Source of the DNA: Patescibacteria group bacterium
GTDB lineage: Bacteria > Patescibacteriota > Minisyncoccia > Phycocordibacterales > PALSA-1337
Length of the DNA: 16,913 bases
Reading direction: 5' to 3'
Assembly: GCA_028871265.1 (NCBI GenBank)
Contig: JAGWNR010000002.1
Coordinates: forward strand, 1 to 16,913
Made by a program: the position numbers and the translations under genes
Shown here: positions 2,528 through 16,913 of the stretch, one piece after another
Numbering within the stretch: the stretch's first letter is position 1
How the letters are laid out: each line of letters starts with the position of its first letter
The notes under the pieces: generated by a model
What the model saw: the letters and a program-made list of their open reading frames with translations, nothing else
Database searches by the model: none
Told to the model about the DNA's origin: nothing

Positions 2528-2534
2528 TAATTAT

Positions 2535-2951: not shown

Positions 2952-2956
2952 AAAAT

Positions 2957-3036: not shown

Positions 3037-3043
3037 GATCTGA

Positions 3044-3106: not shown

Positions 3107-3140
3107 CCGTGAATAAAGTACGTTTTTTGAACGTGTTTGC

Positions 3141-3169: not shown

Positions 3170-3173
3170 ATAT

Positions 3174-3202
3174 TTGACAATGTCTATACAAGATGTTAAT
3201 TT
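3174..3202 (+). promoter_or_regulatory. Candidate promoter of the 3249-3560 gene
   Basis: A consensus TTGACA (3174-3179) is followed after 17 bases by a weak TAATTT (3197-3202), with TG just before it. Transcription would start near 3209, ruling out translation from TTG 3174. Confidence 0.5.
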
Positions 3203-3248
3203 TATTGTTGGAAACAATCATCACAAACTTAAAAGAAGAAAGGAATGC

Positions 3249-3560
3249 ATGAACATTAAGAACTTTACCCTGAAGGGAGCAGGACTTCCAGAGGAATTAA
3301 AGGTGAAATGGAAAAAGCTTTTTGGCCGAAAACCATGGGTCACCAGTAAACTGTCGGATCTCTGCATCCTGGCTGATATTACCGATTATAACCTCGCATT
3401 ACCAAAGATGACTGAGGACGACGCCCGCAAGCTCACTGAATTGGTCAAAATCCACGAGAACATCAATTTCGCCGACGACTTCGAAACTGGCGGCAAAAAG
3501 CAAAAAGCGTCACACGCGGCAATGGATCGCCTGCTCAGGCAGATTATCGCCCGCAAATGA
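3249..3560 (+). CDS. Small hypothetical protein
   Basis: 103 residues starting MNIKNFTLKGAGLPEELK; family not recognised. It has no signal peptide or membrane segment and is rich in Lys and Asp/Glu, with predicted helices (TEDDARKLTELVKIHENI; HAAMDRLLRQIIARK), so it is probably a small soluble protein. ATG 3249 was chosen because the purine run AGAAGAAAGGA ends four bases before it, one of the few Shine-Dalgarno-like sequences in the window; the frame is open back to TTG 3174, but that codon is the -35 hexamer. It converges on the propeller gene and shares its terminator. Confidence 0.65.
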   Translation: MNIKNFTLKGAGLPEELKVKWKKLFGRKPWVTSKLSDLCILADITDYNLALPKMTEDDARKLTELVKIHENINFADDFETGGKKQKASHAAMDRLLRQIIARK

Positions 3561-3579
3561 CAAGCTCGAACAGCTTCAC

Positions 3580-3605
3580 AAAGTCCCGCACAAAATGCGG
3601 GCTTT
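3580..3605. terminator. Bidirectional terminator
   Basis: AAAG and CCCGC pair with GCGGG and CTTT around the loop ACAAAAT, between two convergent genes. A-rich and T-rich flanks allow termination in both directions. Confidence 0.75.
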
Positions 3606-3606
3606 C

Positions 3607-4638: not shown

Positions 4639-4649
4639 CTGATGCCTGC

Positions 4650-4658
4650 ATTATATCA
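4650..4658 (-). promoter_or_regulatory. Extended -10 promoter of the propeller gene
   Basis: TGATATAAT on the minus strand, consensus -10 with TGn extension, 11 bases before ATG 4638. Confidence 0.6.
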
Positions 4659-4667
4659 AATTTTCAT

Positions 4668-5288
4668 CTATTTAACCGCCAAGGAATCAGGGTTGGTTGG
4701 CACCAGAACCGCCGTCACGACCAGACGCTGACTGTAAGTGTCTGTGGCAGGCAACCATATACCGTGGCAAGTGATTATCTTCAAATATGCTGCGCCGTCT
4801 TGTCGAAAGACCTGCGTACTCGGAAAAGCATTCAAACTATAGACCGCACTTTTTACAATCTGAAAAGTCCGACTGGTGCCGTCAGACATGGCCACGGCGA
4901 TGAAATCACCCAGCTTTGCTTGGTCGAGATGCTTGAAAATACCGTCAATTGTGGGTTTATATCCGCCGTTATCGACATGCCCGTCGATAATAGCGCTTCC
5001 CTCACTCCCCGGAGTCGGATTACCGGTATACCAGCCCGCCTGCACAAAATTGTGTGGCACATCGACATTGCCCGTCTTGGTCAAGCCGACAGAAATAATC
5101 GGCGCATTGGTGCCCACAGATGGAATAGATATAGAAACAGGAACAACCGACGCTTTTGGCGCCATTGCCGCTTCTACATATACCGGAGAGATCGGAACAA
5201 GTATCCCAAAAAATAGAATGACTAGAGATCTAACGATAACCGAGAGAATTAATTCAATTTTAGCCGCAACTCTTGCTTTCGATAACAT
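4668..5288 (-). CDS. Sortase, class F-like
   Basis: 206 residues: an N-terminal membrane anchor (about 11-40) followed by a sortase beta-barrel. The catalytic triad is visible: His104 in SAIIDGHVDN, Cys174 in LKIITCHG, and Arg188 in TYSQRLVV. The short catalytic domain and the IITCHG block resemble class E/F sortases. Sortases cut a C-terminal sorting signal and attach the protein to the envelope or to another subunit. No LPxTG-type substrate with a C-terminal membrane tail is encoded in the window, although secreted proteins sit directly upstream. It has its own extended -10, 12 bases before the ATG. Confidence 0.9.
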   Translation of the reverse strand: MLSKARVAAKIELILSVIVRSLVILFFGILVPISPVYVEAAMAPKASVVPVSISIPSVGTNAPIISVGLTKTGNVDVPHNFVQAGWYTGNPTPGSEGSAIIDGHVDNGGYKPTIDGIFKHLDQAKLGDFIAVAMSDGTSRTFQIVKSAVYSLNAFPSTQVFRQDGAAYLKIITCHGIWLPATDTYSQRLVVTAVLVPTNPDSLAVK

Positions 5289-5300
5289 GCTTTGATCAAA

Positions 5301-5309
5301 ACTATATCA
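5301..5309 (-). promoter_or_regulatory. Extended -10 promoter of the sortase gene
   Basis: TGATATAGT on the minus strand, 12 bases before ATG 5288; no matching -35. Confidence 0.45.
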
Positions 5310-5375
5310 TGCTCATATCACTGCGCCACTTACTTTTTCAAAATCGTATGGTCAAATGTGAAAGGATACACTGCA

Positions 5376-6098
5376 TTAATCTTTTCTACAATACAGCTCT
5401 GCAATATATGGCTGCATGATCGAGTGAGCTTGACCACCACCGACAGCTTTTGATGTGAAATTCATCCCCCCTTGGCCATCACCATAAACGTCACTCCAAG
5501 GCCCTCCACCACCCGAGCCAAACTGTATCTTAATAGGTAAATTAGTAGTTACGGTAAATATCGGTAGTTCTGCGACACTTAGAGTGTGCTTTTCCGAACC
5601 ACCCGTAGCCCCATTTGCGTATGCAGAAGTCACTGTGGTTGTTCGTCCACCAATAGTAGCGGTTGTCGCTGGTCCAGAACCGATGATGGTTCTACCATAC
5701 GCCGCTGTATATGTACTCCAACCTGTTGGGCATGTGCTCAAATCAAAAGCCATGATTGCTCCTGATGGGATAGAACCACTTCCTGAACCGCCCGCCGAAG
5801 CCCAGCTGGCATTGCCGTTTCCATCATTTGTCAGGACACTGCCAGCAGCGTTTATCGTTCCGCTGGCAACATTCATGTTGGTAACAACGAGGTTGGCCAG
5901 AGCCAAAAGACCGGTCTTTGATTGAGTATATATATTGCCAGGTGTACCGCCGCCGACATTAATAGGTGCAGCTGTATTTCCGTTTGGAGGAGAGGATGGT
6001 GCTGGCGTCCAATCGGCCAAAACATACTGGATGCCTAGACCAACAATGATTGCCCCTGCACCTATGACGACCGACGATACAATTTTCTTGATATTCAT
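5376..6098 (-). CDS. Secreted tail-collar-like surface protein
   Basis: 240 residues. Residues 1-28 form a signal peptide or membrane anchor, followed by a Pro-rich linker and NTAAPINVGGGTPGNIYTQS, a type of segment I associate with parcubacterial surface proteins. From about 108 on it looks like a phage tail-collar domain: IPSGAIMAFDLSTCPTGWS, then GGSEKHTLSVAELPIFT and the closing SIMQPYIAELYCRKD. Cys123 and Cys237 could form a disulfide joining the ends of the domain. Tail-collar domains form trimeric fibre knobs in phages; in a host without phage genes nearby, an adhesive surface appendage is the likely use (inference). It follows the 6110-6424 gene by 11 bases, so the two are co-transcribed. 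Confidence 0.75.
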   Translation of the reverse strand: MNIKKIVSSVVIGAGAIIVGLGIQYVLADWTPAPSSPPNGNTAAPINVGGGTPGNIYTQSKTGLLALANLVVTNMNVASGTINAAGSVLTNDGNGNASWASAGGSGSGSIPSGAIMAFDLSTCPTGWSTYTAAYGRTIIGSGPATTATIGGRTTTVTSAYANGATGGSEKHTLSVAELPIFTVTTNLPIKIQFGSGGGGPWSDVYGDGQGGMNFTSKAVGGGQAHSIMQPYIAELYCRKD

Positions 6099-6109
6099 AA
6101 TAATTTATT

Positions 6110-6424
6110 TTAATTTGCTTTTAATTGGCGCAATGCATCATCTATTTGGCCTTGGCTCGCCTGCACCACACCAGATACAGAAATCTGCTTTAATCCCGCT
6201 TGTATTTCTGATAATGAGGCTGGTGCAGCTTGTCGTAACGATGCCACGGCATTATTTATGGCTTCGACTCGCGGATCCGCAATGTTGTGGGTAGGCGAAC
6301 CATGGTTCATCTCCATATAGACAAACACTATAGCCAACAGGCAGGCTGCAATTACTAATCCGATTATAGTCACCGTCAGATTGGATTGTGCGATTGGGAC
6401 ACGAACTTGCTCTGTATCATTCAT
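6110..6424 (-). CDS. Small single-pass membrane protein
   Basis: 104 residues: a short polar N-terminus, one membrane helix (about 16-37), then an outside domain with Ala/Gln-rich amphipathic helices (EAINNAVASLRQAAPASL; GQIDDALRQLKAN), possibly a coiled coil. Family not recognised. First gene of a pair with the tail-collar-like gene, so it may anchor or assist it. A leaderless start is likely: extended -10 TGATATACT lies 6 bases before ATG 6424. Confidence 0.7.
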   Translation of the reverse strand: MNDTEQVRVPIAQSNLTVTIIGLVIAACLLAIVFVYMEMNHGSPTHNIADPRVEAINNAVASLRQAAPASLSEIQAGLKQISVSGVVQASQGQIDDALRQLKAN

Positions 6425-6430
6425 ATAACA

Positions 6431-6439
6431 AGTATATCA
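6431..6439 (-). promoter_or_regulatory. Extended -10 promoter, leaderless, of the 6110-6424 gene
   Basis: TGATATACT on the minus strand; the hexamer ends 6 bases before the ATG. Confidence 0.6.
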
Positions 6440-6523
6440 GAACAATCTAGTCTACATATAAAAATTGGGGATAAATTGATTACTGAATTTTTGCTCTAGT
6501 AATAGGTCAGAAATGACTAGCCA

Positions 6524-6554
6524 AAATAAAACCCGCACTTCGCGGGTTTTATTT
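6524..6554. terminator. Strong symmetrical terminator
   Basis: A 13-bp perfect stem, AAATAAAACCCGC/GCGGGTTTTATTT with loop ACTTC, 32 bases past the stop of the 6586-7410 gene. The symmetrical A and T tails would work in either direction. Confidence 0.85.
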
Positions 6555-6585
6555 AACGATCTAGTTTCTGGAAAAAGTGTGACTG

Positions 6586-7410
6586 CTAGCGGGGCAAAAG
6601 TGACCCAGCGGCAGCATAGACCGTACTAACGTCAAGGTTTTTCATCAAACCTTGATATGACTCTAGTCCTCCACGTAGGATCGCTATCAAGTTTTTGATA
6701 TGGGTCGGTGTATCGGTTCCATAACCGCCATTAAGCGTACGGCCGTTTCCGGCAAAGTAAGCCTTGTGGGCATTGACGAATGTTATGAATCTCTGTACGA
6801 ACCCAGGATAATTCGATACATAACCCGGGTCAGTGCAGTAATAGATCTTCAGGGTCGCCCCTGGTACAGCTGCTCCGACTAACGTTTGGTTCGGTACTTC
6901 CAAGGGGAATAGCTGGTAATGAATCGCCCCAACAGGCTCCCATTCTGCGTACAAGGTCGATGGATTCGTTAGATTGATGTCGAGGCCATATGAGGAGAGG
7001 AGTGATTGGAGATATATGGCGTGTGGAATGCTCAGGGCGCTTTGGCATACGTTCGTGCTTTTCATTAGTGAATCCGTCTTTTTTGTTGACAGGACGCTAT
7101 AGAATTTGAGGAATTTAAAGCAAGGATCGGTTTTGAGGTCCGATTTGACAGTCGTGCTAGCGAGCGTGATACCCGTCGGATTCATAATTGAGTTATAGTC
7201 GTTCGTCGCCTTTAGCTCGCCACTGTCACAGGTAGTTGGTGTTTGTTCAACCGACGGATCATAGGGGGCGAATATACTGTCGCCGCCTCCCATTCCCTGG
7301 TTCGTCAGTCCTGCCGAGACAGAATGTGTAGCAGTGGTGAACCCGACAAAGATTATCAGGATTGCCACCAACGACGATCCGAGAACGAGAAAGTATTTAC
7401 TGTTTTTCAT
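6586..7410 (-). CDS. Secreted hypothetical protein with four cysteines
   Basis: 274 residues. A basic N-terminus (MKNSKY) and hydrophobic core (about 8-28) ending near THSVSA make a signal peptide or anchor. The exported part has four Cys (61, 97, 122, 192), an even number consistent with two disulfides. No family was recognised; the segment QRFITFVNAHKAYFAGNGRT is probably helical. It has a leader of about 30 bases and its own terminator, so it is a single-gene unit. The placement next to sortase and tail-collar genes suggests an envelope role but no more. Confidence 0.65.
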   Translation of the reverse strand: MKNSKYFLVLGSSLVAILIIFVGFTTATHSVSAGLTNQGMGGGDSIFAPYDPSVEQTPTTCDSGELKATNDYNSIMNPTGITLASTTVKSDLKTDPCFKFLKFYSVLSTKKTDSLMKSTNVCQSALSIPHAIYLQSLLSSYGLDINLTNPSTLYAEWEPVGAIHYQLFPLEVPNQTLVGAAVPGATLKIYYCTDPGYVSNYPGFVQRFITFVNAHKAYFAGNGRTLNGGYGTDTPTHIKNLIAILRGGLESYQGLMKNLDVSTVYAAAGSLLPR

Positions 7411-7449
7411 AAAACGTAGGGCTTTGGTTAATAAAAATTGTATACGACG

Positions 7450-7458
7450 TGTATATCA
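7450..7458 (-). promoter_or_regulatory. Candidate promoter of the secreted four-cysteine protein
   Basis: TGATATACA on the minus strand (extended -10), 39 bases before ATG 7410. A second TATACA at 7444-7439 is an alternative. Confidence 0.4.
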
Positions 7459-7571
7459 TATCAATAAAACCTTACGAGGCCTAGTAACTCGGCCGTTGCG
7501 AATATAGATAGAGTAACACCATATATCAAGGCCAGGATCAAAGCAGAAAGAGTGTCTCCGATGTCATACTT

Positions 7572-8183
7572 CTACATGTTTGTCAGCAAATGAAAAACAA
7601 CGTTGATTAACGGACTGACCATAGGCCAAACGACAATCAGAGCAATGAACATAAAAATGAGTGAATACCGTTCGATCCCGGCGCGAATATGCTGCTGTCG
7701 TGGCGATAGGAGCGCAAAGAGGATATGTGACCCATCTAGTGGTGGCAAGGGGATCAAATTGAAAAGCGCTAGAACAATATTGATCATCACTACATATGAC
7801 GAAATCGCTAAAAATGCAGTGTTCAAGGAGAGCATCGGTGCAAATCGAATCAACAGGCTAAAAACAACAGCTATCACTATATTTATGGCCGGACCAGCCG
7901 CCGCAATCAGAAATTCACCCAGGCGTTGATTTTTAACGTTATTAGGATTCCACACCACTGGTTTTGCCCAACCAAAGGTGAATCCACCCAGCAAATACGT
8001 CGCGATCGGAACAATCACTGACCCCAGAGGATCCAGATGCTTCAGGGGGTTCAAGGTCAGACGCCCTTGGATACGCGGCGTCGGATCGCCGAGGGCGTTG
8101 GCCGCAAATCCATGCGAAAGCTCGTGCATAACCACAGACATGATTAGAATGACGACGGTAAAAATGAGAGAAAGTGGGTCCAT
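7572..8183 (-). CDS. Site-2 protease, M50 family zinc metalloprotease
   Basis: 203 residues, entirely a membrane-embedded protease domain. HELSH (20-24) supplies two zinc ligands and the catalytic Glu; the second motif NLIPLPPLDGSH places the third ligand at Asp150. FGWAKPVVWNP (70-80) and the AAAGPAINI segment are typical of the short bacterial site-2 proteases. These enzymes cut substrates within the membrane, often in stress or regulatory pathways; no PDZ or CBS domain is attached, and the substrate is unknown. An upstream TTG (8213) keeps the frame open, but ATG 8183 begins the family-like sequence MDPLSLIF and is preferred. Confidence 0.92.
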   Translation of the reverse strand: MDPLSLIFTVVILIMSVVMHELSHGFAANALGDPTPRIQGRLTLNPLKHLDPLGSVIVPIATYLLGGFTFGWAKPVVWNPNNVKNQRLGEFLIAAAGPAINIVIAVVFSLLIRFAPMLSLNTAFLAISSYVVMINIVLALFNLIPLPPLDGSHILFALLSPRQQHIRAGIERYSLIFMFIALIVVWPMVSPLINVVFHLLTNM

Positions 8184-8196
8184 GTTTAATGATGAC

Positions 8197-8271
8197 CAAT
8201 AACCAAGATACAATAATCAAACAAAAAGCGAATATTCTTGTATCTGTTTGGTTATTGTATCTTGGTTATTG
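8197..8271. repeat. Near-perfect 26-base inverted repeat between M50 gene and rpmB
   Basis: Arms 8197-8222 and 8246-8271 match at 25 of 26 positions (the exception can be a G-U pair), around a 23-base loop. Each arm contains AATAACCAAGATACAATAA. It lies between two divergent genes, just upstream of the M50 start, so it could fold in the M50 message or be a site for a DNA-binding protein. Confidence 0.9.
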
Positions 8272-8307
8272 ATTATTTGCTTCATTAATCAAAACACAAT
8301 GAAAAAC

Positions 8308-8335
8308 TTGCATAAGTATTGATATATGATATCAT
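8308..8335 (+). promoter_or_regulatory. Candidate rpmB promoter
   Basis: TTGCAT (8308-8313), 16 bases, TATCAT (8330-8335). An extended -10-like TGATATATG overlaps it (8320-8328). The leader would be about ten bases. Confidence 0.45.
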
Positions 8336-8352
8336 TCTTTCCACTTAATAAC

Positions 8353-8595
8353 ATGGCAAAAGTATGCGCAATTACACAGAGGGGCTCAATCGTGGGTGGT
8401 GGTTATTCAAACCGCACTCGTGCCACCCAATTCAACCCGACCGGCAAGGTCCGCCGTTATCCTAATCTCCAGAAAAAGAAGGTCTACGTTCCTGAATTGA
8501 AAAAGACCTTTACCCTCACTATCTCCACTCGCGCCCTGAAAACTATTCAAAAGCACGGTGCTTTCAAAACCCTAAAGAAGGCTGGCATCATATAA
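8353..8595 (+). CDS. rpmB: 50S ribosomal protein L28
   Basis: 80 residues, beginning MAKVCAITQRGSIVGG and carrying the L28 pattern of SNRTRATQFNPTGKVRRYPNLQ and the C-terminal ISTRALKTIQKHGAFKTLKK. L28 sits near the tRNA exit side of the 50S subunit. An upstream in-frame ATG (8326) lies inside the promoter, and ATG 8353 gives the family N-terminus. It forms a single-gene unit closed by a terminator. The usual partner rpmG is not next to it. Confidence 0.96.
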   Translation: MAKVCAITQRGSIVGGGYSNRTRATQFNPTGKVRRYPNLQKKKVYVPELKKTFTLTISTRALKTIQKHGAFKTLKKAGII

Positions 8596-8601
8596 TGGAC
8601 A

Positions 8602-8625
8602 AAAACAGCCCCGGGGCTGTTTTTT
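8602..8625 (+). terminator. Rho-independent terminator of rpmB
   Basis: ACAGCCCC/GGGGCTGT palindrome followed by six T, 9 bases past the rpmB stop. Confidence 0.9.
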
Positions 8626-8649
8626 CATTTCAGAATGCTCGATTTCTGT

Positions 8650-8655
8650 TATTAT
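8650..8655 (+). promoter_or_regulatory. -10 element of the TraX-like gene (leaderless)
   Basis: TATTAT ends 6 bases before ATG 8662; the -35 is weak. Confidence 0.45.
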
Positions 8656-8661
8656 TGATAC

Positions 8662-9357
8662 ATGAGTGCCTTTCAAATAAAAGCCATCGCCATCGTCTGT
8701 ATGATCATTGATCACCTCGGCGTTTTTTTGTTCCCTCAAATATTTTGGCTCCGCTTGGTCGGCCGAATCGCTTTTCCCCTCTTTGCCTGGCTCATTGCAA
8801 ACGGCGCGCATTATACACATGACATGCGTTCCTATTTGAAACGTCTTTTTATTTTTGCCCTCATATCACAAATACCATTCACTCTAGCCACCCAACAAAT
8901 CAGTGGCCCAACAATTTTTTACTTGAACATATTTTTTACTCTTTTCCTCGGCCTGTCAGCCATTTATGTTATTAAAACGCAATCGAATAAATGGCTTTGG
9001 CTAATCTCCACCCTTGCCGCAGCTGGTATCGCCGACCTCGTTCAGAGCGATTATGGCGCAGCCGGTGTCCTATCCATCGTGGCTTTTTATCTATTTTTCG
9101 AAAATATCTGGTACATGGCTGTTGCCCAAATGTTAATCATGGGTGCGCTTCCCTGGCTCACTCTATATATTTTGCAACAAACATTCTATTTACCACTCGA
9201 ATACATGTACCTGACCAGTTCCTTTGAATATTTTGGACTGCTCGCCCTAGTATTTATATTTTTCTACAACAAAAAACCAGGTTGGAAAGATGGCCACCTC
9301 CTGTATGCTTTTTATCCTCTGCAATTCATCGTCTTCTTTTTATTGAAGGTTGTTTGA
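8662..9357 (+). CDS. TraX-family polytopic membrane protein
   Basis: 231 residues with around eight hydrophobic segments. The TraX pattern is clear: IKAIAIVCMIIDHLG at the start, VGRIAFPLFAWLIANGA, YLKRLFIFALISQIPF, an Asn in YLNIFFTLFLGL, DYGAAGVLSIVAFYLF, and YAFYPLQFIVF at the end. In F plasmids TraX N-acetylates pilin, but most chromosomal members are uncharacterised, probably acyl- or acetyltransferases acting on envelope molecules. No conjugation genes are nearby, so a pilin role should not be assumed. Confidence 0.9.
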   Translation: MSAFQIKAIAIVCMIIDHLGVFLFPQIFWLRLVGRIAFPLFAWLIANGAHYTHDMRSYLKRLFIFALISQIPFTLATQQISGPTIFYLNIFFTLFLGLSAIYVIKTQSNKWLWLISTLAAAGIADLVQSDYGAAGVLSIVAFYLFFENIWYMAVAQMLIMGALPWLTLYILQQTFYLPLEYMYLTSSFEYFGLLALVFIFFYNKKPGWKDGHLLYAFYPLQFIVFFLLKVV

Positions 9358-9391
9358 TGTGTAAATTAAATAAAAATTATCGTTCGCTCTT

Positions 9392-10336
9392 TTATTTCCC
9401 TTTCCATATTCTCTCACCGTCCGAAAAAAATTGGGCTGACGAGCTGGACAAATCTCTGATCTGGCTCACGTATGAGCGCGCGTTGAACTGCGGCTTTTTT
9501 AATGTAGTCGCTTTTGAAACCTTGCCGCTCGATTTCACTATGATGAATTTCGGGTCCAGAGCTTCAATAAATTTTTGTGACACATTCGAAGCACCACCTG
9601 AATGATCATACTCTAGAATGTTGATGGGACTCTTCAGATCTTTCAACAAACTAGAGGAGGTCGCCGCAATTCCTTTTGCCAAATAATTTTGGATTGCTCG
9701 CGAAGCATCGCCTGCAAATATCATTTCCGTTTTGCCAAACAAAAGATTTAGAACCAATTGCGCTGGGCTTGCTTTTGAAAAAGGAAAATTTTGGTCAGGA
9801 AATAGTACGTTCACCGCAACTGATTTATTGGCCAATTGCTTTTCATTTAGATGCTCGTTCCCTGTTGCAAGCACCTCACTAAAAAGGTTTACTCGATCAC
9901 CAACAGAAAGCTCAGTCACCGGAATACTTTTTTCCCGAGCTAGCCCGAGCACCGCTTCTGATGCCGTCGTTGTACCCATACCATCTGGCATATATAGATG
10001 CAAAACAGAATATCGTTTTATTACATCTATTAGACCACCGACAGATTTCGGTTGCGCGTCCGTCATTAATACAGAATCAATTGTTCGTCGATAAAATGGC
10101 ATTAGACGTGACAGCTCACGAATGATATCGCCACTCTGACCCCCATCGACTAAAACGATATGTTTGTTTGGCAATCGGATAAATATTCCATGCCCCCGAT
10201 TGAGAGAAAGAAAATCGACCTCCAAATATGCTGGTGCGTATTCCCACTGCCATACGTACCACAGAGAAAATCCCGCGATTACAAGTAAAATCGTCGAACC
10301 ATAGGATAACAGCCGCAGGAGTACCTGTTGTTTCAT
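9392..10336 (-). CDS. Metallo-beta-lactamase-fold protein like the ComEC C-terminal domain, metal ligands lost
   Basis: 314 residues: a membrane helix (about 9-29), then a domain with the ComEC/Rec2 C-terminal layout. LEVDFLSLNRGHGIFIRLPN matches the usual DVGQGDA strand, VLVDGG is kept, and SVGGLIDVIKRY follows the place where HxHxDH should be. There the sequence reads MTDAQPKSVGG (91-101), so all the usual His/Asp metal ligands are gone. FAGDAS keeps the bridging Asp (Asp210), but the HHGS block reads DHSG (244-247). It is therefore probably a catalytically inactive version of the external nuclease-like domain of ComEC. Start ATG 10336 is chosen over ATG 10345 because the latter overlaps the -10 TATAAT. 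Confidence 0.78.
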   Translation of the reverse strand: MKQQVLLRLLSYGSTILLVIAGFSLWYVWQWEYAPAYLEVDFLSLNRGHGIFIRLPNKHIVLVDGGQSGDIIRELSRLMPFYRRTIDSVLMTDAQPKSVGGLIDVIKRYSVLHLYMPDGMGTTTASEAVLGLAREKSIPVTELSVGDRVNLFSEVLATGNEHLNEKQLANKSVAVNVLFPDQNFPFSKASPAQLVLNLLFGKTEMIFAGDASRAIQNYLAKGIAATSSSLLKDLKSPINILEYDHSGGASNVSQKFIEALDPKFIIVKSSGKVSKATTLKKPQFNARSYVSQIRDLSSSSAQFFSDGERIWKGK

Positions 10337-10343
10337 GAAAGTC

Positions 10344-10349
10344 ATTATA
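10344..10349 (-). promoter_or_regulatory. -10 element of the MBL-fold gene (leaderless)
   Basis: Consensus TATAAT on the minus strand, 7 bases before ATG 10336. Confidence 0.6.
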
Positions 10350-10375
10350 ATAAAAGGAGATTAAGAAACATTAAA

Positions 10376-10407
10376 TCAAGGCGGAGCCTGTCAAGGCTCC
10401 GCCTTGA
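10376..10407. repeat. 13-bp perfect hairpin, shared with the comEC upstream region
   Basis: TCAAGGCGGAGCC (10376-10388) and its exact complement (10395-10407) flank TGTCAA. The left arm and its flank, TAAATCAAGGCGGAGCC, recur upstream of comEC at 12499-12515. It lies between the MBL-fold promoter and the sod promoter. A smaller GGGCT/AGCCC hairpin follows around 10419-10433. Confidence 0.85.
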
Positions 10408-10458
10408 CAGAGAAGTAGGGCTAAATAGAGCCCCTCTTCAAGGTCGCACCTCATCCGT

Positions 10459-10496
10459 ATGAGGTCTATCCTCGTCAGGTCAAGGATAGACCTCAT
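10459..10496. repeat. 14-bp perfect inverted repeat, shared with the comEC upstream region
   Basis: ATGAGGTCTATCCT (10459-10472) and its complement (10483-10496) around a 10-base loop beginning CG. The same 12-bp core, GAGGTCTATCCT, with the same loop length recurs at 12527-12560. Confidence 0.85.
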
Positions 10497-10515
10497 CTGA
10501 CCCCACCTGTCCGAA

Positions 10516-10524
10516 TGCTATACT
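10516..10524 (+). promoter_or_regulatory. Extended -10 promoter of sod
   Basis: TGCTATACT, with 35 bases to ATG 10560, so sod is one of the few genes here with a real leader. Confidence 0.55.
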
Positions 10525-10559
10525 ATGAAACACTTAACCAAAATTAATCCACAAAAACC

Positions 10560-11159
10560 ATGAAAAAATTTGAAGAAAAGAAATTTTCCATCCCTGTTCT
10601 AAAGGGTATCTCAGCCAAAACAATCGATGAACACCTAAAGCTATACGCTGGCTATGTCAAAAACGCCAATTCGATTTTGGAAAAAACACCTGAATATTCT
10701 GTCTGGGCGGAAAAAGATCCATTCGTGCCATATTTTGTCGGCGAGCTTGGCCGACGATTTAGTTTTGAATACAACGGCATACGCAATCATGAAATTTACT
10801 TTTCCTCATTCGAGGGCGGCCCGCAACCACTCGCAGCTGGCAAGCTCAAGGACATGATCAACGAAACCTGGGATTCATTCGACAAATGGCTCACCACTTT
10901 TAAAGCAATGGCCGCCACGACTCGTGGCATAGGCTGGGCAGCACTATGGTATGACCCCGCAGATGATCGTCTCATCAATTCATGGATCGATGAACAACAT
11001 TTCGGACAATTAAACGGATGCACCATGATCCTGGGGCTTGATATGTGGGAACATTCGTATGTAGCCGACTATCAACCTTCGGGCAAAAAACAATACATAG
11101 AAGATTTCTTTGCAAATCTGAATTGGAAAAAAATTGAAGAAAACTTTAAAAAGGCGTAA
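10560..11159 (+). CDS. sod: Fe/Mn-type superoxide dismutase
   Basis: 199 residues, full length for the family and without a signal peptide, so cytoplasmic. All four metal ligands are present: His25 (AKTIDEHLKLYAGYVKNAN), His77 (IRNHEIYFSSFEGG), Asp161 and His165 (LGLDMWEHSYVADYQPSGKK). The closing IEDFFANLNWKKIEENFKKA matches the family C-terminus. It converts superoxide to oxygen and hydrogen peroxide. Metal choice (Fe, Mn or either) cannot be decided; the region of the second-sphere Gln/His reads DEQHFGQ. A Cys (154) lies close to the site. It is convergent with comEC and divergent from the MBL-fold gene, so it sits inside the competence-like group without being co-transcribed with it. Confidence 0.93.
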   Translation: MKKFEEKKFSIPVLKGISAKTIDEHLKLYAGYVKNANSILEKTPEYSVWAEKDPFVPYFVGELGRRFSFEYNGIRNHEIYFSSFEGGPQPLAAGKLKDMINETWDSFDKWLTTFKAMAATTRGIGWAALWYDPADDRLINSWIDEQHFGQLNGCTMILGLDMWEHSYVADYQPSGKKQYIEDFFANLNWKKIEENFKKA

Positions 11160-11175
11160 CGAAATTCCTTGTGGT

Positions 11176-12441
11176 TCAAAAAGAAATTGAAACCCAGGGG
11201 ATTGCCGCAAACTTCGTAACAATAAAAAGTTCGTATGACAAAAACAAATGCGTCACTGCCGCAAATGGCCATGATGCCCATATTGAAAAGATGCCAGCGA
11301 TTCCGGTCAAAGAAATAAAAAGCATGGTGACCGGAATGAGAGGAAGGACCAGAATATTTGCAAAGACGCCGAGGACTGATATTTGACCCATCATGTGAAC
11401 CAAAAGCGGTGTCACCGCCAATTGCGTCGATGTAGTTGAAATGACCAATTCACGCATGCCAAATTTTTCTGGCACCCATTGAAACAATTTTCCGACAAAC
11501 GGGGACAGCCAAATCAAACCAGCTGTAGCCACGAATGATAGCTGGAACGACGGATCGTATAAAATAACCAACGGATTTATAAAAATCATGATGAGTGCTG
11601 CCACAATCAGAGCTCGGGCTGGTTCATACCTGCGACCGATCATTCCAGAAATGATGGCAATGATTGCCATGATACAAGATCGTACAACAGTCGCTCCCCC
11701 ACCGACCAACACACCAAATAAAATAATACCGATGCCGCCCAGAATGTTGCCCAACACTTCGGGCAAAAATGATAGAATCCTCTGTATTGTTGTAGCAATA
11801 ATAGTGATGTTGTATCCAGACAGAACGACGATATGAATGAGACCCACCTTACGAAAGTCATTTAACAATTCTTTGCCCAGAGAATCTTTTTCGCCGACAA
11901 CCAATCCACCAGCCAGAGACGCCTCTGGTTCGCCCAGAACCTGACGAATTGAATTCATAAATATTCCTTTCATTTTGAACAATAATCCAGTCACAGAAAC
12001 ACCAGATGTTTTTATTACGGAAACATCGTTTGATCTGACAATCGATATAATGTTGTCTTTCAAAAGATAATCAACATAGTCAAATGTGCGTCCATTTTGA
12101 CTGCCGAAATTCCTCGGTGCAGTTGTTGTTCCAGAAACCGACAAAACATCTCCATAATGAATATCCTTATATTTTGATGTGACTAGCTTGATGTACGTAT
12201 TATCAAAATCTCCTTGCATATTAAAAAACTTATTATCAAAAGAATTATCTGTACCATCAAATGGTTGGATTGTGACACTCTGTGTAAAATCTCCAATTTG
12301 TGGTTCATCAACAACGCGGGCTACGAAAATATTTCTGTTTCTATTTGATGCCATATCTGGCATATTGTTCGAAACATACCAAAAACGTAGGCAAAAAATG
12401 CATACCAAAACTGCCACAACGAAAAAAATTCTTGCTCGCAT
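11176..12441 (-). CDS. comEC: ComEC/Rec2-family DNA-uptake channel without the hydrolase domain
   Basis: 421 residues. After a membrane helix (about 4-20) comes an OB-fold-like domain (about 36-145, DUF4131 type) and then the competence membrane domain. Diagnostic blocks are SLAGGLVVGEKDSL, FRKVGLIHIVVLSGYNIT (about 196-213), VVRSCIMAIIAIISG, DPSFQLSFVATAGLIWLSP, and the ending AAIPWVSISF. Many ComEC proteins continue into a metallo-beta-lactamase domain; this one stops, and a degenerate copy of that domain is encoded separately about 840 bases downstream. The role is passage of single-stranded DNA across the membrane during transformation. A leaderless start is likely: TATACT ends 6 bases before the ATG. 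Confidence 0.93.
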   Translation of the reverse strand: MRARIFFVVAVLVCIFCLRFWYVSNNMPDMASNRNRNIFVARVVDEPQIGDFTQSVTIQPFDGTDNSFDNKFFNMQGDFDNTYIKLVTSKYKDIHYGDVLSVSGTTTAPRNFGSQNGRTFDYVDYLLKDNIISIVRSNDVSVIKTSGVSVTGLLFKMKGIFMNSIRQVLGEPEASLAGGLVVGEKDSLGKELLNDFRKVGLIHIVVLSGYNITIIATTIQRILSFLPEVLGNILGGIGIILFGVLVGGGATVVRSCIMAIIAIISGMIGRRYEPARALIVAALIMIFINPLVILYDPSFQLSFVATAGLIWLSPFVGKLFQWVPEKFGMRELVISTTSTQLAVTPLLVHMMGQISVLGVFANILVLPLIPVTMLFISLTGIAGIFSIWASWPFAAVTHLFLSYELFIVTKFAAIPWVSISF

Positions 12442-12447
12442 GTGGCA

Positions 12448-12453
12448 AGTATA
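12448..12453 (-). promoter_or_regulatory. -10 element of comEC (leaderless)
   Basis: TATACT on the minus strand, 6 bases before ATG 12441. Confidence 0.6.
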
Positions 12454-12498
12454 TATAAATAGGTATTAAGAAATCTTAAAAAAAGATTAAAAAAATCC

Positions 12499-12580
12499 TA
12501 AATCAAGGCGGAGCCTTGACATGGATGAGGTCTATCCTCGACACAGCAAGGATAGACCTCGTCAGGTGGAGGTCTATCCT
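12499..12580. repeat. Palindromic repeat cluster upstream of comEC
   Basis: TCAAGGC/GCCTTGA with loop GGA (12503-12519); GAGGTCTATCCT and its complement (12527-12538, 12549-12560) with a 10-base loop; then a third direct copy of GAGGTCTATCCT (12569-12580). The first hairpin, followed on the minus strand by a T-rich stretch, may also terminate the upstream DksA/TraR-like gene. Confidence 0.85.
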
Positions 12581-12590
12581 ACCACGCACC

Positions 12591-12956
12591 CTATTTTTTA
12601 GTATATTCAGCCAAAGTCCTTGCAGCGGGGTTCGCTTCCAAACGATCCTCCCCAATCGGTTTACCGGATACTTCACAAATACCGTACGTCCCTTTTTCTA
12701 TCCTTGCCAGAGCATCGGTCACTTCCTTTAGTTGTCGGTCTAACGACCCAACAATTCCTTGATTGTCTTCAAGTTCCTCCATTTTATCAGCCAGCTCACT
12801 CTCATCCGCCTGATCTATATCCATACTACCAGATGTCGCAATCCATCCACCAGGATTTTCTGTATCGCGGCTACTAATCGTTCGTAATTCCTCTTCAATC
12901 AAGGCCTTTTCCTTTTCCAATTTTTGCTTGAAATATTCGATCTTTTTTTGTGTCAT
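12591..12956 (-). CDS. DksA/TraR-family protein lacking the zinc-finger cysteines
   Basis: 121 residues: a long coiled-coil hairpin with the acidic tip (MDIDQADESELADKMEE), then the family C-terminus LARIEKGTYGICEVSGKPIGEDRLEANPAARTLAEY. DksA-type proteins bind RNA polymerase through its secondary channel and change promoter response. The usual four zinc Cys are reduced to one: CxxC reads CEVS and the second pair reads TLAEY. Zinc-free DksA relatives are known, so this can still be functional. ATG 12956 is preferred over ATG 12962 because the -10 TATACT (12971-12966) lies only three bases before the latter. Confidence 0.88.
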   Translation of the reverse strand: MTQKKIEYFKQKLEKEKALIEEELRTISSRDTENPGGWIATSGSMDIDQADESELADKMEELEDNQGIVGSLDRQLKEVTDALARIEKGTYGICEVSGKPIGEDRLEANPAARTLAEYTKK

Positions 12957-12965
12957 ATTCATATG

Positions 12966-12971
12966 AGTATA
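12966..12971 (-). promoter_or_regulatory. -10 element of the DksA/TraR-like gene
   Basis: TATACT on the minus strand, 9 bases before ATG 12956; predicted leader of 2-3 bases. Confidence 0.5.
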
Positions 12972-13916
12972 TTATCTTGTAAATGACTGTTTTTCAAGTC
13001 GATTGATAATTTCAGACAAAGCGTGGCTATCGGTCGTAATAACGATGATCCCAGGATCGACAAATGAATACATTATTAATTCATTTCCATCCTGTCTGGT
13101 AAATAGACGGATATCTTTGTTTGATATTACCCCATCTTTCCATGTGCCCTGTATGTCAAAATATTGTGCCACTGTGCTGGTTCCTGAAATAACGGGCTGC
13201 TCGACAGAAGGAAAAATCAAGGACAGATTATCTGGCATGCCTTTTTCCCAACTGATCATGCCAGCATAAGCGTTTTGGAAAAAGTTGTCAGACAGTACGA
13301 TAAATGGAGCCGCCGTACCATTATCGTTATAAACGCCTAGCATCCAGTTAGTATCCAGAGAGCGAAACAATATATCGGGAACGCTCATGCCAGTCATTGT
13401 CAAAAAATCAGTTATGGGCACTATTGTCGCAACCGGTTTGCCGTTTGCAGTAGATCCATTATCTGTTGTTACTGGGATAATCTGCAAAATCGAACCGGCT
13501 GTGTTTGTCCCGACTTTCGATAGAACATTTTTCACCGCTGTTTGTACCCCTCCTCTATTGAGGCCAGAGAAATCCAATGTTTTTTGCTCATTAGCTCCAA
13601 ATATACTCGGTACAGCTGTTTGCTGTGGCACCGTAGGTACTCGCACCGATAATGGGCTGTAAAGATATAAAACATATGCCCCGCCCAAGCCCATTAACAC
13701 CAAGGCGATGCTCATTATTGTGATAAAAATTTTCTTTCTCGATCCTTGACTCTCTGTATTAGTTTCTGCTGGCACATTCGATTTTACCCTTTTCTCTGAC
13801 AAAACCATTGATGCGGCCGAGGCATTTTTCTTTTGGATAGCTTCTTGAATATCACCCTCTAGTGTTCGGAGGGCTTTTTCGTGTTCAATTGGCTTTTGCT
13901 CACCATTTTCATTCAT
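12972..13916 (-). CDS. Single-pass membrane protein of unknown function
   Basis: 314 residues: a charged cytoplasmic N-terminus of about 58 residues (EHEKALRTLEGDIQEAIQKK, probably helical), one membrane helix (about 60-82, after SRKKIF), a Pro-rich linker, and an outside domain of some 200 residues rich in beta-strand-like segments (ATIVPITDFLTMTGMSVPDI; NELIMYSFVDPGIIVITTD). No family was recognised, no Cys pair and no catalytic motif. ATG 13916 is preferred; the ATG codons at 13928 and 13925 lie in or next to the -10. It precedes the DksA/TraR-like gene, which has its own promoter. Confidence 0.7.
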   Translation of the reverse strand: MNENGEQKPIEHEKALRTLEGDIQEAIQKKNASAASMVLSEKRVKSNVPAETNTESQGSRKKIFITIMSIALVLMGLGGAYVLYLYSPLSVRVPTVPQQTAVPSIFGANEQKTLDFSGLNRGGVQTAVKNVLSKVGTNTAGSILQIIPVTTDNGSTANGKPVATIVPITDFLTMTGMSVPDILFRSLDTNWMLGVYNDNGTAAPFIVLSDNFFQNAYAGMISWEKGMPDNLSLIFPSVEQPVISGTSTVAQYFDIQGTWKDGVISNKDIRLFTRQDGNELIMYSFVDPGIIVITTDSHALSEIINRLEKQSFTR

Positions 13917-13926
13917 GGTACCCATC

Positions 13927-13932
13927 ATTATA
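13927..13932 (-). promoter_or_regulatory. -10 element of the 12972-13916 gene
   Basis: Consensus TATAAT on the minus strand, 10 bases before ATG 13916. Confidence 0.5.
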
Positions 13933-13952
13933 ACGCAATTTTGCTTTTTTTA

Positions 13953-14489
13953 TTATCTCTGCAGACGGTCTTTTCTAGGTGCAGAACGCATTATGTATTT
14001 ATTTACTGCTTCATCTAGATCAGTGAAGTGGTCGGTTGCTTCAATCAATTTGGCTGAGGTCGATTTGCCAAAAGAAGCCACTTCCACCTGACAGCCTTCA
14101 CTCAGTTGTAAATATTCAACTAATGGCACAAAATCGCCGTCACCGGTCACCAAAATCACCGCATCCAGCTTTGGCGCCAACCTGACAGCATCGATGGCCA
14201 ATCCTACATCCCAGTCGGCTTTTTTCGCTCCAGAGCCGAATATTTGCAGATCCTTGACCTTGGTCTCTATACCCATGTTTATAAGTGCTTCAAAAAAAGC
14301 CTCCTCCTCGCCAGATTCTGTAGATATTACATATGCCACTGCGCGCACCAATCGACGGCCTGCCAAGGCATCCTTGACAATCTGACCGAAATTAACCCGT
14401 GCGTGATACAGATTCTTTGCGCTGTGATATAAATTCTGGGCGTCAATGAAAATACCGACACGCTGTTCCTTATGTTTTATTACTGACAT
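13953..14489 (-). CDS. NYN-domain (LabA/DUF88) putative ribonuclease
   Basis: 178 residues, a single PIN-like NYN domain. VGIFIDAQNLYHSA (Asp16), ADWDVGLAIDAV (Asp94) and VILVTGDGDFVPLV (Asp117, Asp119) form the acidic metal-binding cluster expected of this nuclease fold. RNA cleavage is the likely activity by family; the target is unknown. It lies downstream of rpsO, separated by about 110 bases of repeat-like spacer and no clear terminator, so read-through from rpsO is possible, and RNA or ribosome-related work would fit. Confidence 0.9.
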   Translation of the reverse strand: MSVIKHKEQRVGIFIDAQNLYHSAKNLYHARVNFGQIVKDALAGRRLVRAVAYVISTESGEEEAFFEALINMGIETKVKDLQIFGSGAKKADWDVGLAIDAVRLAPKLDAVILVTGDGDFVPLVEYLQLSEGCQVEVASFGKSTSAKLIEATDHFTDLDEAVNKYIMRSAPRKDRLQR

Positions 14490-14504
14490 GAAAATAAATT
14501 ATTA

Positions 14505-14578
14505 AAAGTTTATAAAGTTTTAAAGCCTGCAAAACCAACGTACTGACTTTTTAATATGCAAATGTTTTGCGGACTTTA
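14505..14578. repeat. Repeat-built inverted repeat between rpsO and the NYN gene
   Basis: TAAAGCCTGCAAAAC (14521-14535) and GTTTTGCGGACTTTA (14564-14578) pair at 13 of 15 positions. AAAGTTT-like words are iterated to the left. Same style as the rpsL and rpsL-rpsG spacers. Confidence 0.7.
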
Positions 14579-14600
14579 TAAGCTCTCTAACTTTGGCGGT

Positions 14601-14867
14601 TTATTTCTTCAATTCAAGTTTCTTTACAATTGCTGAATACCGACGCGGATGATTTTTTTTCAAATAGTTCAAGTGGGCCTGGCGGCTGGCGACCATCCCC
14701 AATAGGCCACGGCGTGAGTGATTGTCTTTCCTGTGCTTCTTCAAATGGCCGGCCAATTCATCAATCCTCCGGCTCAAAATGGCAATCTGGACCTCGGCAG
14801 AACCGGTGTCCTTGTCATGTATGGCCGTCTCTTTGATGATCTTGGCTTTTTGTTTTACTGAAATCAT
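14601..14867 (-). CDS. rpsO: 30S ribosomal protein S15
   Basis: 88 residues with the S15 pattern: DTGSAEVQIAILSRRIDELAGHLKKHRKDNHSRRGLLGMV followed by SRQAHLNYLKKNHPRRYSAIVKKLELKK. S15 binds the central domain of 16S rRNA early in 30S assembly. The family is normally followed by pnp; here the next gene in the same direction is the NYN nuclease instead. ATG 14867 has no Shine-Dalgarno sequence. Confidence 0.97.
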   Translation of the reverse strand: MISVKQKAKIIKETAIHDKDTGSAEVQIAILSRRIDELAGHLKKHRKDNHSRRGLLGMVASRQAHLNYLKKNHPRRYSAIVKKLELKK

Positions 14868-14876
14868 TGTTTTTCA

Positions 14877-14905
14877 ATGGTAGCACGAAATAGTTTTTTG
14901 TGCAA
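14877..14905 (-). promoter_or_regulatory. rpsO promoter
   Basis: On the minus strand TTGCAC (14905-14900), 17 bases, then TACCAT (14882-14877) preceded by TGC, an extended -10. The hexamer is 9 bases before the ATG, giving a leader of 2-3 bases. Confidence 0.6.
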
Positions 14906-14913
14906 ACTGCCAG

Positions 14914-14967
14914 CTTTCCTAAGTCGGACTTCCTAGCTTGGGTCGCACCTAGGAAAACTTTAGAAAG
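14914..14967. repeat. Nested inverted repeats upstream of rpsO
   Basis: Outer arms CTTTCCTAAGT (14914-14924) and ACTTTAGAAAG (14957-14967), imperfect; inner arms TTCCTAG (14930-14936) and CTAGGAA (14949-14955), perfect. It lies between the terminator-like hairpin at 14973 and the rpsO -35. Confidence 0.65.
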
Positions 14968-14972
14968 TAAAA

Positions 14973-14998
14973 CCACCTCGAGATTTCTCTCAAGGTGG
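14973..14998 (-). terminator. Terminator-like hairpin of a minus-strand transcript
   Basis: CCACCTCGAGA (14973-14983) pairs with TCTCAAGGTGG (14988-14998) except for one C-A mismatch, loop TTTC. On the minus strand it is followed by TTTTACTTT. No recognised gene precedes it on that strand, which points to a small RNA or small ORF between here and the promoter at 15316. Confidence 0.6.
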
Positions 14999-15061
14999 CA
15001 ATTTGGCATCGTTGTGACTTTGACTGGCAAGGTAACACAACAGGTGCGCCGGCGGCGAGGT

Positions 15062-15178
15062 TCAGGTCGAGATATATTTTGCCGCGTGGCGCGCCGAGAT
15101 GGTGCCGGCGTCGGTGGTGATGATTTTCAGGCCGGAATTTTTGGCGTTCAGGTTGGTGATGTTCGGAGGTGCGTTCAT
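15062..15178 (-). CDS. Candidate 38-residue small protein
   Basis: A frame of 38 codons starts at ATG 15178 with MNAPPNITNLNAKNSG and ends AAKYIST. AAAGGA lies 10 bases before the ATG. Third codon positions are mostly C or G, as might be expected for translated sequence, but the stretch is locally GC-rich so this is weak. A 16-residue frame (15225-15175, MKTIAPKWRNERTRHL) ends in a TGA that overlaps the ATG (ATGA), which could couple translation. The strand has a good promoter (15316-15288) and a terminator-like hairpin (14998-14973), so a transcript of about 300 bases is likely. It could instead be a non-coding RNA. The rest of the 485-base spacer between rpsO and xer holds no other gene I can see. 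Confidence 0.4.
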   Translation of the reverse strand: MNAPPNITNLNAKNSGLKIITTDAGTISARHAAKYIST

Positions 15179-15287
15179 AGGTGCCGTGTCCTTTCGTTGC
15201 GCCATTTTGGCGCGATTGTTTTCATTTGAATGAGCCTACGCGCAGCCCTCTGCACTCGCAGTACTTTGCAAAGATCATTCGCCAAGT

Positions 15288-15316
15288 ATCCTAGCATACC
15301 ACACTTTTCTTGTCAA
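15288..15316 (-). promoter_or_regulatory. Strong promoter of the minus-strand small transcript
   Basis: Consensus TTGACA (15316-15311), 17 bases, TAGGAT (15293-15288) preceded by TGC, so both -35 and extended -10 are present. Start predicted near 15281. The 5' part can fold through GAATGA/TCATTC (15275-15280 with 15228-15233). Confidence 0.6.
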
Positions 15317-15340
15317 GTATCTAAAAATGTTGCGCTATCC

Positions 15341-15346
15341 TACAAT
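15341..15346 (+). promoter_or_regulatory. -10 element of xer (leaderless)
   Basis: TACAAT ends 6 bases before ATG 15353; no good -35. Divergent from the small-transcript promoter. Confidence 0.5.
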
Positions 15347-15352
15347 AACCTC

Positions 15353-16273
15353 ATGTCGCACAATATTTCCGAGCTCAAACAGCAGTTTCTCGAATATATC
15401 GAGATTGAAAAAGGCCGGTCAGTGAAAACGGTTGAAAATTATGATCGGTATCTTGCCAGATTTATTGAGCATACCAAAATAAAAAAGGCCGAAGACATCA
15501 CTCCGGAAATGATGCGTGAATACAGACTGTGGCTAAATCGACAATCCGTGCATCGCCGCACCGGTCCTGAAAATATAAAGAAAAAGACTCAAAATTATTA
15601 TCTGATCGCTCTTCGGGCATTTTTGAAATTTTTGGCCAAAAACAATATCTCAACGCTGTCTCCAGAAAATATCGAACTCGCCAAAGTCGGCGAACGTCAC
15701 CTGGATTTGATATCGCACGATGAATTACAGCGGCTTTTAGCCGCTCCAAATGGCGATGATTTGAAATCGTTGCGAGACAAAGCGGTGTTAGAACTTCTCT
15801 TTTCAACGGGCTTGCGCGTGGCCGAGCTGGCTTCCCTCACCCGCGACATTGATTTTGACGCCGAGAGTTTCCCTGTCCGTGGCAAAGGCGAAAAAATCCG
15901 CGTGGTATTTATTTCCGACGAAGCCAGAAAAGCGGTCAAAAGATATTTGGCCAAACGCACCGACGTAGACGATGCTTTGTTTATACGCGTTGGTCACGCA
16001 AAATCTTCGAATGAGGATTTGATTTTAAACAAACGTTCTATCGAAAGGATTGTCAAAGATTGCGCCATAAAAGCCGGCATCTCCAAAAAAGTCACGCCTC
16101 ACGTCATCCGCCACTGTTTTGCCACCGATCTCCTCTCCAATGGCGCCGATCTGCGCTCCGTTCAGATGTTTTTAGGCCACTCGAACATTTCCACCACGCA
16201 GATCTACACTCATGTGACCGACAGACAGCTTCACGACGTATACAAAAAATTTCATGGTAAGGGAAGGAAATAA
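15353..16273 (+). CDS. xer: Xer-type tyrosine recombinase
   Basis: 306 residues: an N-terminal SAM-like core-binding domain (about 1-100, EKGRSVKTVENYDRYLARF) and a catalytic domain with every active-site residue in place: Arg155 (STGLRVAELA), Lys178 (RGKGEK), His250 and Arg253 (TPHVIRHCFAT), His276 (LGHSNISTTQIYTH) and the nucleophile Tyr285. Size and sequence are those of XerC/XerD, which resolve chromosome dimers at dif; a single recombinase may do this alone, but XerC and XerD cannot be separated here, and no dif-like site was identified. The frame stays open upstream to 15230, but ATG 15353, after a -10, gives the family N-terminus. Nothing suggests an integrated element around it. Confidence 0.95.
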   Translation: MSHNISELKQQFLEYIEIEKGRSVKTVENYDRYLARFIEHTKIKKAEDITPEMMREYRLWLNRQSVHRRTGPENIKKKTQNYYLIALRAFLKFLAKNNISTLSPENIELAKVGERHLDLISHDELQRLLAAPNGDDLKSLRDKAVLELLFSTGLRVAELASLTRDIDFDAESFPVRGKGEKIRVVFISDEARKAVKRYLAKRTDVDDALFIRVGHAKSSNEDLILNKRSIERIVKDCAIKAGISKKVTPHVIRHCFATDLLSNGADLRSVQMFLGHSNISTTQIYTHVTDRQLHDVYKKFHGKGRK

Positions 16274-16320
16274 TTTCACTACAACCCAGAAATTAATTCG
16301 GTGTAAGTTCCCAAGAAAAA

Positions 16321-16913
16321 TTAAGCCAATTTCTTTTGTCTCTTGACAATCGCTTTCATTTCTTTCTTCAGTTGTTTAATATGTTTTTCCGGCTTCAAGT
16401 TTTCTGGCATCTCACTACCCAATTCGCGCATCGTCTGCCTGACTTTTTTACCGACATCAAAGTGTGTTTTTCTTGAATCCAGATCACCATGAATATTTTC
16501 GCGTTTTAATTTTGCCTCAGTTTGAGTAATGCGAAAAATATTTGCCCCTAGTTCTTCCGAACCCATATGGTCTAGTAATTCACCTTTTTGAACATTTTTC
16601 TTTGCTTCAATATCGGAAAGCGACATCTCGTATAACCCTTTGTATCCCGCATTATTGAAAAGGCCAAAGTTTGATACGCCTGCTTGCTTTGCGGTGCTGA
16701 ACAGCAGTTTATTTTTGTCTGCAGCCTCCTGACGTTTTAGTAGTCTCTTTTCTGCTGCCGGTAATCCGTCTAATATCTCCTGTTTGCGTGTTTGAACGGC
16801 AAAATATGTTTGAGCCAGAGCAATTTCGGATTTTGTAGAATCTCCATTTTGAGCCACCAAATAACAGGCACATCTGTCCAATTTCCAATCTTTGATAGGC
16901 CTGACCGCATTAG
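16321..16913 (-). CDS. dinD: DinD-like DNA-damage-inducible protein, N-terminus cut by window edge
   Basis: The frame is open from 16913 to the stop at 16321; about 197 C-terminal residues are visible, the N-terminal part lying outside. It matches E. coli DinD in order: [55 protein letters not shown]. DinD is an SOS-regulated protein reported to inhibit RecA activities; homologues are scattered and probably spread by transfer. TTG 16881 is an internal codon, not the start, since the family sequence ([16 protein letters not shown]) continues before it. It is convergent with xer with 47 bases between them and no clear terminator. LexA control cannot be judged because the promoter is outside the window. 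Confidence 0.92.

Follow-up and report, generated by a model that had tools for sequence, protein, structure and literature searches.

The window analysed here is the whole 16,913-nucleotide stretch of a Patescibacteria group bacterium (assembly GCA_028871265.1, contig JAGWNR010000002.1, positions 1 to 16,913). In it, the DNA-uptake protein ComEC is encoded in two parts, by a comEC gene confined to the channel and by a separate gene for a membrane-anchored protein of the metallo-β-lactamase (MBL) fold, hereafter the partner, which is related by sequence and by fold to the MBL nuclease domain of ComEC/Rec2 proteins. This split is not peculiar to the source genome and is widespread in the phylum; the metal site of the partner has, judging from alignments, been lost in one clade, to which the window belongs. 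The reading that we favour, and hold to be moderately probable, is that the nuclease subunit of a two-gene ComEC has turned into a pseudoenzyme in this clade, would still be docked at the channel and would guide DNA structurally, with the non-imported strand being removed by other means.

Relationship of the stand-alone protein to ComEC

A reading of the window made from the sequence only had proposed that comEC ends after the membrane domain and that a nearby gene encodes its missing MBL part, and both proposals were borne out. The 421-aa comEC product matches Competence (PF03772, 2.7e-43) and DUF4131 (PF13567, 8.7e-8) in Pfam, and no Pfam match to an MBL domain was found in it. The partner is located downstream of comEC, past a superoxide dismutase gene, 833 bases away by the open reading frame (ORF) ends used; being a separate ORF, it is not fused to the Competence domain. 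Its length is 317 aa counted from the first ATG, or 314 aa if the next Met is taken as the start.

The 317-aa protein gave no Pfam match at E 1. The NCBIfam ComEC/Rec2 profile TIGR00361 matched it at profile positions 417-634, in the C-terminal part of ComEC, with E 4.5e-7 and 28 bits, which falls under the curated whole-protein cut-off of 190; an active member of the family (L077) matches this profile at 388-659 with E 6.1e-43. Two solved ComEC MBL chains were also matched by sequence, 9ic4 (E 0.0032) and 30bt (E 0.0072). AlphaFold2 modelling yielded a confident fold (predicted local distance difference test score, pLDDT, 83.5; predicted template modelling score, pTM, 0.80), for which Foldseek ranked 9ic4, the nuclease domain of Moorella glycerini ComEC, first in the PDB (E 4e-18; template modelling score 0.74 by target). 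The model starts with a single long helix, a probable membrane anchor. With 9ic4 as its nearest structure, the partner is not of an unrelated fold, and the structure match together with the family survey given below argues against chance resemblance.

A second intact ComEC-type MBL protein, which could have done the same job, was not found in the source genome (655 kb, ~90% complete). The family alignment matched once there, and the three other Lactamase_B matches correspond to RNase J, a beta-CASP protein and a PF13483-type hydrolase.

The two-gene arrangement among relatives

With the window protein as query, a match was obtained in 48 of the 53 genomes of its family. The search was extended with an alignment of 46 family proteins, which gave stand-alone ComEC-type MBL matches for 219 of the 247 genomes sampled in the order and 137 of the 192 sampled in the phylum. 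Gene order was counted over the family and order loci. In the family, 42 of 48 loci place comEC upstream of the partner and on its strand, and a dismutase homologue of opposite orientation is situated between the two in 41 of the 42 loci with both genes; in 17 of these 41 the dismutase gene overlaps the comEC frame. For the order, 70 loci with ~3.5 kb of flank were compared: 46 have comEC upstream and in the orientation of the partner, one has it on the other strand, and 23 show none, of which 4 are short of upstream sequence. These comparisons suggest that a two-gene ComEC, composed of a channel protein plus a ComEC-type MBL nuclease with an N-terminal membrane anchor, encoded by a gene of its own that is often nearby, occurs commonly in Patescibacteria.

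Erosion of the metal site in one clade

Eight positions were counted at the metal site: four of motif II, the Asn ligand, the Asp of the GD motif and the two His of HHGS. Variants were accepted at three of them (Asn for the first His, His for the second position of motif II, and His or Asp for the Asn). The window partner keeps two of the eight and so lacks the full set of metal and substrate residues (HxDxDH, Asn, GD, HHGS). As the sequence-only reading had argued, motif II has become TDAQPKS and the HHGS block DHSGGA; the Asn-ligand column is Ser, and the Asp of FAGDAS is kept. By this count the site is lost, and the protein is probably not a nuclease.

The same positions were read in relatives. 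Partners were labelled active or inactive from their motifs, and the ligand counts therefore describe the groups and are not an independent test of them. In the family, where the fragment L052 was excluded and some other partners are cut by contig ends, 40 of the 47 counted proteins have lost the site, catalytic Asp included, and the 7 active-type ones keep all eight positions. In the order draw, 219 genomes matched, of which 5 belong to the family; 100 of their partner loci were read, and all but the fragment L207 entered the count, in which 98 of 99 proteins outside the family keep 8/8 positions. For the phylum, 69 loci from the 137 matching genomes were read (29 best-scoring and 40 from lower ranks, a few of them in the same order or class), and all 69 keep seven or eight positions, with D100, H101, D213 and the first HHGS His invariably present. 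Two substitutions recur among the proteins read. Asn replaces the first motif II His (NPDxDH) in 21 of the 100 order loci, for example L106, L109 and L126, a change comparable to the Asn-for-His substitution cited for Streptococcus pneumoniae ComEC in PMC8579336, and six phylum partners (for example L222, L241 and L244) combine HPHxDH with Gln for the second HHGS His.

The 40 inactive family members keep between zero and six of the eight positions. D100 and H249, the second HHGS His, are each present in none of them, whereas each is found in 105 of the 106 proteins that make up the rest of the family and order counts; of the remaining positions, the Asn is kept in 2, H101 in 8, D213 in 10, the first HHGS His in 17, and the first and second positions of motif II in 19 and 21, respectively. 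The inactive proteins also lack the NRYGHP loop found in active ones, often with a K/S/P-rich stretch or a gap in its place. Position 219 is Glu in the 105 active rows counted for family and order, and all 40 inactive rows carry Gln there; the inactive proteins also conserve F.YSKAS.PE, close to where the active ones hold the Asn ligand. One family member, L062, keeps 6/8 positions and looks like an intermediate by its motifs; L201, from another family of the order (genome G120), keeps 1/8, also carries Gln219 and looks like an independent loss.

Judged by these motifs, the loss of the metal site belongs to a clade and not to the source genome alone. The inactivated clade comprises genera g1, g2, g3, g8 and g9 of one family, with Candidatus Taylorbacteria among its kin. 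An error in a single genome was rejected as the cause, since 40 of the 47 counted family partners show the same kind of loss. A ComEC phylogeny, as drawn, requires two changes for the inactive rows, and a single inactive clade is not rejected (approximately unbiased test, p 0.546); the window forms a long branch in it beside a long active row, and three active family members fall among the outgroup rows. The sequence-only reading had proposed surveying related genomes for conservation of the ligand losses. Such conservation was seen within the family; the split proved to be widespread in the phylum and the loss a feature of the clade, neither of them specific to this genome.

Maintenance of the inactive partner and its possible roles

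The partner was seen only together with ComEC, in 48 of 48 family genomes. Three family genomes lack both proteins, including the 99%-complete G018, and in two others (G011 and G050) ComEC lies on contigs under 5 kb without a partner. No inner stops occur in any of the family partner matches listed, and invariant residues are present among 15 and among 23 diverged sequences. The ratio of non-synonymous to synonymous substitution rates (dN/dS, Nei-Gojobori) was 0.11-0.23 for the inactive partner in five of ten pairs, a rough estimate from simple counts, as dS is saturated in the other five pairs and over 1 in those used. ComEC gave 0.07-0.16 in the same five pairs, and the one active pair gave 0.08 for partner and for ComEC. 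Because its frames are open, its dN/dS is 0.11-0.23 and it never occurs without ComEC, the inactive partner does not appear to be debris and shows signs of purifying selection.

That it is nevertheless a decaying remnant without function would agree with the loss of most metal-site residues, with its faster evolution relative to ComEC and with the truncated comEC of the window (see below); given the open frames, the low dN/dS where measurable, the invariant residues and the confident fold, this explanation is already disfavoured, and we regard it as very improbable. Only a little more credible is retained nuclease activity, either at a site that other residues have rebuilt or without metal. 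Some ligands do persist, as in L062 and in the retained Asp213 (10/40) and first HHGS His (17/40), but no replacement set of His or Asp is conserved over the inactive rows. Moreover, the Moorella ComEC domain is described as a Mn-dependent nuclease whose metal-ligand mutants are mostly virtually inactive, D600A being an exception with ~5-fold less activity (PMC12455585).

Two further explanations are unlikely, though less so. The inactive MBL protein could have been recruited to a task outside DNA import, such as binding a ligand or protein at the membrane, and lie near comEC by inherited gene order. The surroundings of the former site have changed to a new conserved set (F.YSKAS.PE and Gln219), the partner lies apart from comEC in some genomes having both (G002, G013 and G025), and with the dismutase gene between them in 41 of 42 family loci, the two genes form no simple operon. 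Against such recruitment stand its constant company with ComEC, the absence of both from G018, and the 46 of 70 order loci in which the partner follows comEC on one strand. The other explanation, to which we give marginally less credence, is that a membrane-anchored SNase took over strand degradation in the clade, as EndA in S. pneumoniae. The source genome encodes an SNase with an N-terminal hydrophobic stretch (L284:1097-1801, + strand, contig C20), and in the family SNase occurs in 30 of 41 inactive-partner genomes vs 1 of 7 active-partner genomes (Fisher p 0.005), an association probably resting on few loss events in genomes that are not independent. A search of the 53 family genomes for EndA-type nucleases (PF01223) at E 0.001 found none, and EndA was accordingly rejected as the replacement. 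Of the 241 order-draw genomes outside the family, 79 have SNase, a lower share than among the inactive-partner genomes, yet still about a third in a sample where most partners read are active; the SNase of the source genome is on another contig than comEC.

We thus return to the pseudoenzyme reading. Computation supports it through the homology and fold of the partner, through its lost ligands and missing HHGS and GHP elements, and through frames that stay open, signs of purifying selection and co-occurrence with ComEC. Mechanistically, the inactive partner would stay docked beside ComEC and its oligonucleotide/oligosaccharide-binding (OB) fold entrance and, by analogy with known systems, would be a structural subunit that holds or guides the DNA as it enters. 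Another nuclease could then remove the non-imported strand, the strongest candidate in the window genome being the membrane-anchored SNase, or this strand might instead be displaced while the other one is pulled in. A stronger form of this reading, which we entertain tentatively and think doubtful, is that the clade has made the strand-degrading subunit a dedicated non-catalytic DNA-handling subunit, its pocket remodelled into a conserved binding surface, with strand removal by membrane-anchored SNase or by displacement. The structural or DNA-binding role proposed in the sequence-only reading is therefore the best one at hand, as an inferred role. Its other suggestions fared less well: uptake without strand degradation is one possibility beside cleavage by the SNase that the genome encodes, and nucleotide scavenging gained no support. 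DprA, detected in 51 of 53 family genomes (in 50 over the cut-off; 5.6e-56 in the source genome), fits transformation. For ComEA-type receptors (HHH_3), matches in 24 of 53 genomes were weak, and all stayed below the cut-off. In a Saccharibacterium, comEC is reported to be needed for transformation and not to be among the genes important for growth (PMC10633639).

Several observations weigh against the pseudoenzyme reading. Docking of the partner to ComEC is inferred. The NRYGHP loop presumably matches, by its position, the loop that is essential in Legionella; with it lost from the inactive proteins, guiding would therefore need other residues. SNase is missing from 11 of 41 inactive-partner genomes and hence was rejected as a general replacement. 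The inactive partner evolves faster than ComEC, unlike the one active pair, which points to looser constraint. Neither H249 nor position 219 alone marks inactivity, as H249 is Gln in 6 of the 69 phylum proteins and position 219 varies there. Mean charge is +2.3 in inactive partners, -2.9 in active family members and -11.2 in other families; the shift is thus partly a family trait, and as proof of DNA binding it is weak, active family members being already near neutral. Finally, the window ComEC is without its last helix, so DNA uptake in the source genome may be impaired.

The truncated comEC and neighbouring genes of the window

The window ComEC stops before the last membrane helix and the tail that are present in the relatives compared; L049 is also short there. 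In the frames past the comEC stop the missing helix is not visible, and a tail-like stretch lies in another frame beside the dismutase gene (window 11000-11180, - strand). The comEC reading frame thus appears, from the sequence, to be lost before the last helix. Modelling of ComEC reached a modest pLDDT of 67.8. Either ComEC can do without the last helix, or DNA uptake is breaking down in the source organism only; the family-wide pattern is independent of this truncation. A gene for a TraX-family membrane protein (PF05857, 1.5e-36) adjoins the partner gene at window 8662-9357 (+), and a Sortase-domain protein (PF04203, 3.3e-19) is encoded at 4668-5288 (-). Coordinates of the main features are given in Table 1.

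Table 1. Features of the comEC locus, in window positions.
Feature	Position	Strand	Basis
comEC, OB fold (DUF4131) and Competence membrane domain, 421 aa	11176-12441	-	Pfam search; ORF list
Superoxide dismutase gene between comEC and partner, convergent with comEC	10560-11159	+	Pfam; search of family loci
Stand-alone ComEC-type MBL-fold partner, 317 aa, N-terminal membrane anchor, metal site lost	9392-10345	-	Sequence, model, ligand count
N-terminal helix of partner, residues 2-35, probable membrane anchor	10241-10342	-	AlphaFold2 secondary structure
Former motif II, residues 95-101, TDAQPKS (active relatives THPDxDH)	10043-10063	-	Alignment with relatives
Residues 187-193, FPFSKAS, at the place of the Asn-ligand stretch of active relatives (inactive relatives mostly F.YSKAS)	9767-9787	-	Alignment
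Motif IV, residues 210-215, FAGDAS, Asp kept	9701-9718	-	Alignment
Former GHHGS block, residues 247-252, DHSGGA (active relatives GHHGSx)	9590-9607	-	Alignment

Comparison with known systems and implications

The window partner resembles the Moorella ComEC nuclease domain (9ic4; TIGR00361) in fold, in sequence kinship and as the partner of a ComEC channel, and differs from it in being a separate membrane-anchored polypeptide in which the metal ligands and the HHGS and GHP elements are lost. Split ComEC systems with an active-type partner (L077, L049 and L116) share the two-gene layout and the kind of protein, but keep 8/8 positions. S. pneumoniae may serve as a milder precedent: it is transformable and has retained an MBL domain that is probably inactive (PMC8579336, section 9; PMC5031224; PMC12455585). 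There the domain lies within ComEC and carries several ligand substitutions, and EndA cuts the strand, whereas in the window clade the protein is separate, most of the site has disappeared and 53 genomes yielded no EndA-type gene. The authors of PMC8579336 suggest in section 9 that the dead S. pneumoniae domain may be retained as a guide; the same section relates that a metal-dead domain lowered transformation of Bacillus subtilis 10- to 100-fold without abolishing it, and cites a contrary report. The domain is also of importance apart from its metal ligands: in Legionella, a double mutant of one loop abolished transformation, and section 25 of PMC12455585 leaves open whether melting or guiding was lost.

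The fusion of ComEC with an MBL domain is reported as essentially absent in the candidate phyla radiation (CPR) by Meheust et al. 2019 (PMC6744442), whose passages on ComEC describe neither a separate MBL gene nor its inactivation. Likewise, no description of a separate inactive ComEC partner was found in titles, abstract openings or passages from the open-access literature on ComEC, on competence in CPR/Patescibacteria and on MBL pseudoenzymes. The MBL domain that Meheust et al. report as essentially unfused is, as our survey shows, often present in these bacteria as a gene of its own. How the non-imported strand is degraded or displaced where ComEC lacks this nuclease domain is presented as an open question of the field in PMC8579336 (section 9). 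The family described here offers a matched natural comparison, in which related genera carry active-type or erased sites in the same two-gene layout and on separate proteins, which are open to deletion, exchange and purification. If the stronger form of the pseudoenzyme reading is true, the guide function of the MBL domain would have been separated in nature from its nuclease function.

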